NCBI GenBank assembly: GCA_030524545.1
Contig: JAUNGM010000017.1
Span: forward strand, 1-64,000
Length of the DNA: 64,000 nucleotides
DNA from: Eubacteriales bacterium
GTDB lineage: Bacteria; Bacillota; Clostridia; Lachnospirales; Lachnospiraceae
Direction: 5' to 3'
Notes under the pieces: model-generated
What the model was told of the DNA's origin: nothing
Database searches by the model: none
Seen by the model: only the letters and a program-made list of their open reading frames with translations
In this document: in pieces, positions 31,313-33,234 of the stretch
How the letters are laid out: each line of letters starts with the position of its first letter
Position numbering within the stretch: position 1 is the first letter of the stretch
Position numbers and translations under genes: made by a program

Positions 31313-31341
31313 TTGACAAACGCAGCTTTGTATCTTACAAT
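31313..31341 (+). promoter_or_regulatory. strong promoter of the ABC-F leader
   Basis: A consensus TTGACA (31313-31318) and TACAAT (31336-31341) are exactly 17 bases apart. Transcription should start near 31348, only about 10 bases before the leader ORF's ribosome site, giving a leader of about 300 nt before the ABC-F start. Confidence 0.8.
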
Positions 31342-31357
31342 AAGTCCAGATTTTATG

Positions 31358-31489
31358 AGAGGGGTGGAAAGATGAGGAGATAATCTGCTTTTGAAAACAT
31401 GAAGCTTATTTGTTGCAGTATGATCGTGGAATGATACTGCTTAGTCATGTTGCCAAAAGTGGATTATGTTCTCATAACCCCTCTTTTTT
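31358..31489 (+). promoter_or_regulatory. ribosome-sensing attenuator leader of the ABC-F gene
   Basis: AGAGGGGT (31358-31365), the ribosome site of the three-codon leader ORF, is exactly complementary to ACCCCTCT (31477-31484), which runs into TTTTTT (31484-31489). Between them AACATGA/TCATGTT and GCAGTAT/ATACTGC form a nested hairpin, so the whole leader folds into a terminator closed by the ribosome site. A ribosome held on the leader ORF would cover the 5' arm and let transcription continue. An alternative local pairing, TTATG-TTCT-CATAA (31464-31477), competes near the end. Confidence 0.6.
31372..31383 (+). CDS. three-codon leader ORF (Met-Arg-Arg-stop)
   Basis: ATGAGGAGATAA follows AGAGGGGTGGAAAG, a ribosome site with good strength and spacing. 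The three-residue peptide MRR ends in TAA. Very short leader ORFs in front of antibiotic-resistance ABC-F genes are known to sense drug-stalled ribosomes; arginine-rich leaders are common among macrolide-type sensors. The function here is inferred from the pairing of its ribosome site with the terminator 3' arm. Confidence 0.5.
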   Translation: MRR

Positions 31490-31644
31490 GATGCGCAAAA
31501 CAGGATGCGGCCATAACGCTGTGAAGCAATGGTTTATGTGCGTTCCTGCAGAAAACAGATGTAAGGTTTGGGTACACGATTCGGGATCATTTGGCAGCAG
31601 ATGGTTCCTTTTTTATGGAACCGGTCAAAGAGAGGATGAGGAAT

Positions 31645-33234
31645 ATGGCACAGATCTGTGTATCGGATCTTACATTTTATTATGAAAACAGTTTTGACAA
31701 CATTTTTGAGAAGGTATCTTTTTCTATTGATACGGACTGGAAGCTGGGATTGATCGGGAGAAACGGGAAAGGGAAAACAACTTTTCTGAACCTGCTGCTG
31801 GGAAAATATGAGTATCAGGGAAGTATCAGCACTTCGACAGTTTTTGATTATTTTCCGTATTCGGTTTTACCGGAGGATTACGGGAAATGTGCGGTGGAAT
31901 TTTATGAGGAACTGAAGGCAGGAAGTGAATTCTGGCGGATTTTATGTGAATTGGAGAAGCTTGAGGCAGACGCGGAGATTTTGTACCGGCCGTTTGAAAC
32001 CCTGAGCCACGGGGAGAGGACGAAGGTGATGCTGGCCGTATTGTTTTCCGGGGAAAATGAATTTCTTCTGATCGATGAGCCTACCAATCACCTGGACCAG
32101 GCTTCCAGGGAAATTGTAAAGAGGTATCTTGGAGGAAAAAGGGGATTCATTCTTGTATCTCATGACAGGGATCTTCTGGATGCCTGTGTGGATCATGTAC
32201 TGGTATTAAACCGGAATTCCATTGAGGTGCAGAGCGGAAATTTTTCAAGCTGGTGGGAGAATAAAAACCGGAAGGATGCCTTTTCCCAGAGAGAAAATGA
32301 AAAGCATAAAAAGGAGATCGTGAAGCTGAAAAAAGCATCTGAAAGGACAAAACAGTGGGCGGACAAAAACGAGGGAACCAAGATCGGATTTGACCCTGTA
32401 AAAGAGCATGACCGCTGTATTGCAACAAGGTCTTTTATCGGTGCAAAGACGAAAAAGATGCAGAGCCGTGTAAAGCAGATGGAATACCGGATCGACAGGG
32501 AGATTGAGGAAAAGGAAGGGCTTCTGAAGGATATCGAAACGCCTGCGGAGCTGAAGCTTTCTCCTTTGGAGCATTATAAAAATGTGCTTATTTCCGCAAA
32601 AGAATACGGGCTGAAATACCAGGATGCAGAAACTCCTGTTTTTGAAAATCTGAATCTGGAGGTGCAGCAGGGGGAACGGATCTTCCTCAATGGGAAAAAC
32701 GGCTGCGGGAAGTCAAGCCTGATCAAAGCAATTCTGGCAAATGCAGCAGGAAATGCAGCAGGAAATACAGTGGAAAATGCAGCAGGAAATGCTGCGGAAG
32801 ATGCAAAGTGCGGGCAGAAGCCGGTGAATCCGGCGGCAGAGACGGGAACACTCCGCATTGCTCCGAACCTGGTGATATCGTACATTAACCAGGATACCTC
32901 CTTCTTAAAAGGAGATATCAGGCATTTCTGCAGGATACGGAATCTGGAGGAAAGCCTGTTTTGTGCGATTCTTCGCCAATTGGATATGGGACGGGAGCAA
33001 TTCGCAAAGAATATGAAGGAATTTTCGGAAGGACAGAAGAAAAAGGTTCTGATCGCCGCCAGCTTAATGACACCTGCACATCTGTATATCTGGGACGAAC
33101 CGCTGAATTATATCGATGTATTTTCCAGAATGCAGCTTGAAAAATTAATACTGGCCTATCACCCCACCATGCTGGTGGTGGAGCATGATGTACGGTTCCG
33201 TGAGCAGATCGCTACCAGAGTGATTGAAATGTGA
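31645..33234 (+). CDS. ABC-F family ATPase, probable ribosome-protection antibiotic-resistance protein (Lsa/Vga-like)
   Basis: A 529-residue soluble protein with two ABC domains and no membrane span. Domain 1 has Walker A GRNGKGKTT (38-46), signature LSHGERTKV and Walker B FLLIDEPTNHLD. Domain 2 has GKNGCGKSS, FSEGQKKKV and LYIWDEPLNYID. The inter-domain linker (about 220-300, with IATRSFIGAKTKKMQSR) matches the arm of Lsa/Vga/Sal-type factors that reach the ribosomal E and P sites and displace lincosamides, streptogramin A or pleuromutilins. Residues 366-385 contain five tandem four-residue repeats just after the second Walker A. The start 31645 follows GAGGATGAGGAAT. The drug spectrum is not readable from sequence. 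Confidence 0.82.
   Translation: MAQICVSDLTFYYENSFDNIFEKVSFSIDTDWKLGLIGRNGKGKTTFLNLLLGKYEYQGSISTSTVFDYFPYSVLPEDYGKCAVEFYEELKAGSEFWRILCELEKLEADAEILYRPFETLSHGERTKVMLAVLFSGENEFLLIDEPTNHLDQASREIVKRYLGGKRGFILVSHDRDLLDACVDHVLVLNRNSIEVQSGNFSSWWENKNRKDAFSQRENEKHKKEIVKLKKASERTKQWADKNEGTKIGFDPVKEHDRCIATRSFIGAKTKKMQSRVKQMEYRIDREIEEKEGLLKDIETPAELKLSPLEHYKNVLISAKEYGLKYQDAETPVFENLNLEVQQGERIFLNGKNGCGKSSLIKAILANAAGNAAGNTVENAAGNAAEDAKCGQKPVNPAAETGTLRIAPNLVISYINQDTSFLKGDIRHFCRIRNLEESLFCAILRQLDMGREQFAKNMKEFSEGQKKKVLIAASLMTPAHLYIWDEPLNYIDVFSRMQLEKLILAYHPTMLVVEHDVRFREQIATRVIEM
32740..32799 (+). repeat. five 12-nt tandem repeats inside the ABC-F gene
   Basis: Five in-frame copies of a 12-base unit (type AATGCAGCAGGA) encode NAAG, NAAG, NTVE, NAAG and NAAE. 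Unit number could change by slippage without a frameshift. Confidence 0.8.

Follow-up and report, generated by a model that had tools for sequence, protein, structure and literature searches.

Three-codon upstream open reading frames (uORFs) have been described ahead of several ABC-F genes. According to the accessible passages of two papers, they read MIN for VmlR, MR[I/M] for CplR and MK[L/Q] for VmlR2 (PMC9226507, PMC10201436). In the case of are5sc, the excerpted text of PMC12421871 reports that MLV is translated in toeprints and that an additional MRS is not translated. Drug-induced stalling on three-codon uORFs of ABC-F genes is also described in passages of these papers (PMC9226507, PMC10201436, PMC12421871).

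The locus analysed here lies in a stretch of 64,000 nucleotides from a Lachnospiraceae bacterium, and the whole stretch is called the window below. Like the ARE ABC-F attenuators, its leader carries a short uORF, preceded by a ribosome site and close to the 5' end of the transcript. The Bacillus subtilis vmlR leader shares with it a three-codon uORF, an anti-antiterminator hairpin over the uORF, an intrinsic terminator, a ribosome-site hairpin and an ABC-F gene (PMC9226507, accessible passages). However, the uORF ribosome site of vmlR is single-stranded and lies before the hairpin SL-1, whereas the site in the window is the basal stem that closes the uORF hairpin, termed hairpin 1 (vmlR from the same passages). 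The accessible part of PMC9226507 does not present SL-1 as a terminator, whereas hairpin 1 is followed by a T run. The Clostridioides difficile cplR leader (MRI) has in common with the window an MR[I/M] uORF, a 5' hairpin over the uORF and a terminator hiding the ribosome site of the gene; it differs by two separate hairpins with one terminator and by its ABC-F subfamily. Enterococcal lsaA shares an Lsa-type ABC-F gene and a conserved short uORF, but the uORF has the four-codon consensus MAGN (cplR and lsaA from the accessible passages of PMC10201436). A passage of PMC4335068 refers to erm(K), whose drug-responsive leader likewise has two terminators side by side, but the gene behind it is a methylase gene. 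In the msrD leader (MYLIFM), a stalled ribosome directly prevents terminator formation as proposed here; in contrast, a six-residue peptide senses macrolides there and the msrDL attenuator has a single terminator (PMC10314930, accessible passages). The leader in the window is most likely a variant of ribosome-mediated attenuation and not a new kind. In the literature covered (titles, abstract starts and some passages, with many subscription papers outside it), neither a description of the leader in Lachnospiraceae nor a terminator doubling as an anti-antiterminator was recognised.

Hairpin 1 and the three-codon uORF

The features of the locus are collected in Table 1. A preliminary description of this DNA had reported the consensus promoter, the MRR-stop frame with its strong ribosome site, and an ABC-F gene downstream. 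All of them were recovered, and the gene proved to be Lsa-type by structure and family matches.

Table 1. Features of the leader and the gene behind it, in coordinates of the window
Feature	Coordinates	Strand	Basis
Promoter, TTGACA-17-TACAAT	31313..31341	+	11 of 12 consensus matches (consensus scan)
uORF Shine-Dalgarno AGAGGGGTGGAAAG, also 5' arm of predicted terminator T1	31357..31365	+	fold, pair probabilities, pair covariation
Hairpin 1, encloses the uORF; predicted terminator T1 and anti-antiterminator	31357..31485	+	z –6.5; pairing and covariation in 52 sequences
Three-codon uORF Met-Arg-Arg-stop, ATG AGG AGA TAA, ATGAGGAGATAA	31372..31383	+	sequence; 57 of the 61 leaders have an intact three-codon uORF
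Sensor strand TGTTGCCAAA, 5' half of antiterminator, in 3' half of hairpin 1	31448..31457	+	complementary to 31590-31599; covariation in relatives
T1 3' arm and T run (T run 31484-31489)	31477..31489	+	sequence
Predicted second intrinsic terminator T2, 11-bp stem and T6, GGGATCATTTGGCAGCAGATGGTTCC-T6	31583..31614	+	scanner (stem 31583-31608); T2 arms covary
Switch element TTTGGCAGCA, 3' half of antiterminator, within T2 hairpin	31590..31599	+	complementarity, folding, covariation
Ribosome binding region of ABC-F gene	31630..31641	+	sequence
Lsa-type ABC-F ribosome-protection gene, 529 aa	31645..33234	+	structure and family matches

The region 31340-31500 folds as a single long hairpin of –57.8 kcal/mol. 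None of 200 dinucleotide shuffles was equally stable (mean –34.1, sd 3.7). Hairpin 1 itself is 129 nt long, and the pair probabilities of its basal stem (31357-31365 with 31477-31485) are 0.80-0.95. Within this stem, the uORF ribosome site at 31358-31365 pairs with ACCCCTCT at 31477-31484 beside a run of six T's, at the very positions given in the preliminary description. The sequence ACCCCTCTTTTTT lies 93 bases past the uORF ATGAGGAGATAA. T1 is absent from the list of the simple terminator scanner because its loop exceeds the scanner limit of 8 nt. An intrinsic terminator between the uORF and the gene is predicted from the sequence both as T1 (fold and conserved T run) and as T2 (scanner). 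A TTATTT occurs at 31406-31411 in the apical part of hairpin 1 and fits the NusG-type pause motif (TTNTTT), looked for as a trait of vmlR-type leaders. TTNTTT is present in 15 of the 57 apical regions; by shuffling, 9.1 would be expected.

Relatives of the ABC-F protein were searched in genome contigs, which gave 13 loci, including one with no more than 25% identity, and in genomes of the family, where 127 of 299 contained relatives at E up to 1e-60. Upstream of many relatives stands AGAGAGGTGAAAAG-ATG-two codons-stop, followed by a T run about 110 nt on. An alignment was made of 26 distinct leaders from loci that the protein searches had yielded. The structure derived from the window is formed in 94.8% of the cells of this alignment, and 11 of 37 pairs carry double-sided changes. 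Paired percentage, double changes and covariation score were matched by 0 of 500 shuffles and the number of pair types by 1 of 500. When the structure was slid out of register, only 44-61% paired. A covariance model then matched 39 of the 299 family genomes at E up to 0.001. At the same threshold it matched 52 of 397 genomes in a second, overlapping draw from the same family (Lachnospiraceae), and 3 of 391 in a class-wide draw, namely the genome of the window itself, one genome of the same family and one weak match in another family. In 52 model-aligned copies, 95.0% of the pair cells are standard and 16 of 37 pairs are double-changed (0 of 500 shuffles), although this alignment leans to the structure it was fitted to, and many of its rows had already gone into the model. 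The two arms covary in related genomes, a check that the preliminary description had suggested. Compensated changes in both arms of relatives include AGAGAGG/CCTCTCT to AGAGGGG/CCCCTCT, as in the window. Hairpin 1 is a real and conserved feature.

For the counts below, 64 places were parsed and three weak ones (L082, L102 and L103) were dropped throughout, which left 61 leaders. Promoter-like hexamer pairs precede 43 of the 61, and in 30 of those 43 the –10 end lies 15 or 16 nt ahead of the leader's fifth base. A T run of at least five lies near the leader 3' end in 54 of the 61. In the search against Rfam 15, the window had no match at the gathering score (best sub-threshold score 19.7 of 60 bits), and nothing credible appeared at E up to 10. 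A blastn search of the leader against plasmids and phages gave no match at E up to 0.01, and the covariance model gave none in one lsa(E) plasmid stretch and one Priestia Lsa plasmid stretch.

The peptides of the 57 intact uORFs are MRR (21), MRK (16), MRI (7), MKR (5), MSR (2) and six singletons, and their stop codons are TAA in 54 and TAG in 3. The Arg-Arg sensor suggested in the preliminary description is thus not strictly conserved. Its other suggestion, that a three-residue leader is among the smallest known, has to give way to the three-codon leaders already published (MIN, MRI and MLV). The first base of codon 2 changed at least seven times on a quick ABC-F tree of 52 rows; five of these changes, read by eye off the drawn tree, are A to C and keep Arg. 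At the level of sequence, the Arg-keeping changes may be taken as modest evidence for uORF coding. On the other hand, the start, the codons and the stop of the uORF all occupy paired positions of hairpin 1. Therefore, conservation of the start and stop is not a clean proof of translation.

This pairing, together with the loose conservation of MRR itself, is what could be expected if hairpin 1 were only a structural RNA, either a leader that binds a protein or a ligand, or a small RNA, with the MRR frame as a by-product of pairing. We regard this explanation as highly improbable. A Shine-Dalgarno sequence and an unpaired linker precede the uORF AUG, and the exact three-codon frame is kept in 57 of the 61 leaders. 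The mostly Arg-preserving changes in codon 2 and the lack of a matching Rfam family also argue against it.

The proposed second lock and antiterminator pairing

Downstream of hairpin 1, T2 folds alone with –12.8 kcal/mol. The complementarity between the sensor strand and the switch element in the window has p 0.005 against shuffles. A sensor motif was recognisable in 57 of the 61 leaders, and the best downstream complement of each was tested against dinucleotide shuffles. It beat them at p up to 0.05 in 43 of the 57 and at p up to 0.01 in 35. Since this set was judged by complementarity, the switch was picked by motif, position and platform for the covariation test. The assignment by motif and platform gave a T2-type terminator in 26 of the 61 leaders, a ribosome-site hairpin in 23 and neither in 12; by eye, it looks wrong for L056, L088, L020, L016, L095 and L096 (ribosome-site type) and L099 (T2), and the pattern missed T2-like elements in L065, L067 and L072. 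The seven dubious rows were kept in the sensor-switch statistics, L099 was left out of the T2-arm test, and all seven were left out of the second-helix test. In the relatives, the switch element thus belongs to one of two structures, T2 or a hairpin that conceals the ribosome site of the gene. The type of the second lock switches at least three times on the ABC-F tree, in which three rows were set to T2 by hand and five dubious rows were set to unknown.

Across 48 distinct rows, 9 cells of the sensor-switch helix are double-changed, a count matched in 1 of 1000 row permutations, and 88.1% of its cells are paired, which 4 of 1000 permutations matched. Two of the four measures in this test were not significant, namely how many pairs carry a double change (77 of 1000) and how many pair types occur (434 of 1000). 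Compensation is seen, for example, between GTCGCC and GGCGGC in L105 and between CCAGA and TCTGG in L074. The T2 arms were tested in 25 T2-type rows including the window. They are 96.0% paired (0 of 1000 permutations). Double-changed cells number 17, where permutation gives a mean of 3.6 (0 of 1000), and 5 pairs carry a double change (28 of 1000). Pairing and covariation across the leaders support an antiterminator that is mutually exclusive with the locked structures; folding of the window favours it only as long as T2 is incomplete.

A second antiterminator helix can be formed when the T1 3' arm ATAACCTC pairs with GAGGTTAT, which lies 16 nt before the switch. At this fixed position, at least 8 of 9 bases are paired in 10 of 23 T2-type leaders; among leaders of the ribosome-site type, this holds for 3 of 15. 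In the T2 type, the leaders' own partners did better than permuted ones (7 of 2000), but in the ribosome-site type they did not (265 of 2000). In shuffles of single leaders, p 0.05 was reached by 12 of 43 leaders and p 0.01 by 3 of 43. The second helix is weak in the window, with 4 of 9 pairs.

Seven further Lsa-type loci carry a leader of another class, referred to as class 2, in which a hairpin lies over a four-codon uORF candidate. They are L033 (MYLK), L037 (MLSR), L040 (MRIR), L041 (MEIR), L044 (MINR), L048 (MKNR) and L049 (MINR). In all seven, the sensor GTGTACGC or GTGTATGCCGAA pairs with a downstream element at p 0.03 or less (mononucleotide shuffles). No T run of five occurs in the 75 nt from the sensor on in four of the seven. 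The idea that all class-2 leaders are without a T run after the uORF hairpin was rejected, as this is true of those four only. In L049, a T run stands right behind a basal stem, which may be T1-like. The class-2 leaders resemble the vmlR arrangement. We infer that the class of the window turned an anti-antiterminator into a terminator, or the reverse.

Predicted effect of a ribosome on the uORF

In our judgement, the leader is probably a ribosome-mediated attenuator with two locks, both gated by the ribosome. Transcription would start a few bases ahead of the uORF ribosome site. When drug is absent, the ribosome would read MRR and depart, and hairpin 1 would close over the uORF. Because its basal stem abuts the U tract, hairpin 1 would itself end transcription (T1). 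It would also bury the sensor strand, so that the second lock could form in read-through transcripts; this lock would be T2 in the window and the ribosome-site hairpin in some relatives. A drug such as a lincosamide, a pleuromutilin or a streptogramin A would hold the ribosome at the uORF start, where it covers the 5' arm, and T1 could not form. The freed 3' half would then pair with the switch element as the latter exits the polymerase, which gives the antiterminator. The polymerase would consequently pass T2 as well, and the ABC-F gene would be made. Termination at T1 and T2, translation of the uORF and drug stalling as the signal are predicted steps of this scheme, and the inducing drug classes are suggested by analogy, from the relationship to Lsa and from the published work on VmlR, CplR and ARE5.

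The ribosome was mimicked by forbidding pairing in its uORF footprint. Blocking 31356-31387 in the fold of the window reduced the T1 stem from about 0.95 to 0. The masking mechanism of the preliminary description is thus plausible as far as T1 is concerned; it was incomplete, as it had missed the antiterminator and T2 or the ribosome-site hairpin. The same simulation was applied to the 47 leaders in which the uORF is intact and the platform had been assigned, including those whose assignment is dubious. With the RNA ending just past the switch, the antiterminator exceeded 0.5 in 0 of 47 unmasked leaders and in 40, 41 and 41 with the ribosome at codon 1, 2 and 3, respectively. With the second hairpin complete, the corresponding numbers were 0 unmasked and 12, 24 and 26 masked. 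In the window, the antiterminator rose from 0.00 unmasked to 0.91 masked at the AUG when the RNA ended just past the switch. Once T2 was complete, it reached 0.00, 0.20 or 0.16 depending on the position of the masking ribosome, and 0 to 0.02 when the RNA was folded from the start site with the uORF masked. When the RNA of the window ended at T2, T2 stayed at 0.95-1.0 whatever the ribosome did. The equilibrium fold favours the complete T2 even under masking, and therefore the switch must be kinetic in the window. What the analysis shows is the anatomy of hairpin 1, T2 and the antiterminator, how they recur and covary, and how masking is predicted to affect them.

Masking of the uORF had another effect in the window. 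By the masked fold, the freed T1 3' arm would pair with the ribosome site of the ABC-F gene at about 0.5-0.99 per base, against 0.00 unmasked. Such a pairing, if formed as modelled, would hinder translation when the gene should be on. In the relatives, the second helix could occupy the freed T1 arm.

A simpler explanation is that the leader attenuates at T1 only, with the ribosome blocking the T1 arm and the downstream hairpin being independent and unregulated. Masking alone does abolish T1, and the indifference of the window's T2 to the ribosome fits this explanation. Nevertheless, we hold it to be unlikely. Switch and sensor are complementary in 43 of 57 leaders, the switch varies in part together with the sensor, and it is found in either of two different second locks. 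Besides, the seven class-2 leaders keep the pairing between sensor and downstream element with other sequences, four of them without a T run of five. Our confidence in the attenuator with two locks was slightly trimmed, and that in control at T1 only was slightly raised, because of the strong pairing of the freed T1 arm with the ribosome site and the weaker class-2 contrast.

Genes behind the leader

The best solved relative of the 529-aa protein is Lsa(A) (7nhk, E 8.9e-109), and plasmid Lsa(E) is about 50% identical to it. The protein scores above the cut-off of NCBIfam NF000355 (ribosomal protection-like ABC-F). Its best-scoring family is NF000167 (Lsa), yet the 612 bits obtained are below the curated 750, and therefore the gene is named Lsa-type and not Lsa. 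A small internal repeat rich in alanine, asparagine and glycine lies at 32740-32810 of the window, in the second ATPase domain, and the matches of many relatives end nearby.

An Lsa-type gene comes next after the leader in 33 of the 39 genomes that the model matched (299 searched) and stands behind 54 of the 61 leaders; two more (L108 and L099) precede another ABC-F gene. This bears on the view that the leader senses the supply of ribosomes, in which any initiating ribosome opens the hairpin and the leader reads initiation capacity instead of drug stalling. A strong ribosome site is the terminator arm, and so occupancy should block T1 without drug as well. We consider this view very unlikely, as most of the genes that follow the leader encode ABC-F ribosome-protection proteins and the published three-codon uORFs of ABC-F genes answer to drugs that hold the initiating ribosome.

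Other genes follow the remaining leaders. A GNAT acetyltransferase gene stands behind L105 and a P-loop/GNAT fusion gene behind L107 (374-1867), for which Pfam lists GNAT only and the P-loop part is our own reading; T2 is present in both. In L085, a truncated Lsa-type frame is followed by a relative of the fusion gene of L107. In L087, a short Lsa-type stub is followed by a MATE efflux gene, as if this gene had replaced the ABC-F gene. In L106, a metallophosphatase gene lies 340 nt downstream of the leader. L085, L087 and L106 look like remodelled loci. The GNAT gene, alone or fused (L105, L107 and L085), is a candidate drug-response gene.

Tentatively, the proposal may be taken further. One uORF hairpin might serve as the sensor, as a terminator and as the anti-antiterminator of an exchangeable second lock, which is either a terminator or a ribosome-site hairpin. 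The leader might then represent a new RNA family and a portable drug sensor, driving Lsa-type and other ABC-F genes as well as the GNAT acetyltransferase and P-loop/GNAT fusion genes as candidate new resistance genes. This wider reading is possible rather than probable. The leader would add a widespread RNA family that is absent from Rfam 15 and by which ribosome-protection genes would be controlled in a major family of the gut. Its architecture would be compact, with the uORF ribosome site, the terminator and the anti-antiterminator held in one stem. With the two exchangeable second locks, it would become possible to test how transcriptional as against translational attenuation evolves, and the leader could be used as a tag for finding unknown drug-response genes.

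The leaders of L058 and L085 are identical over 133 bases, and their genomes are assigned to different genera. Judged from the sequences, this identity points to recent transfer or close kinship.
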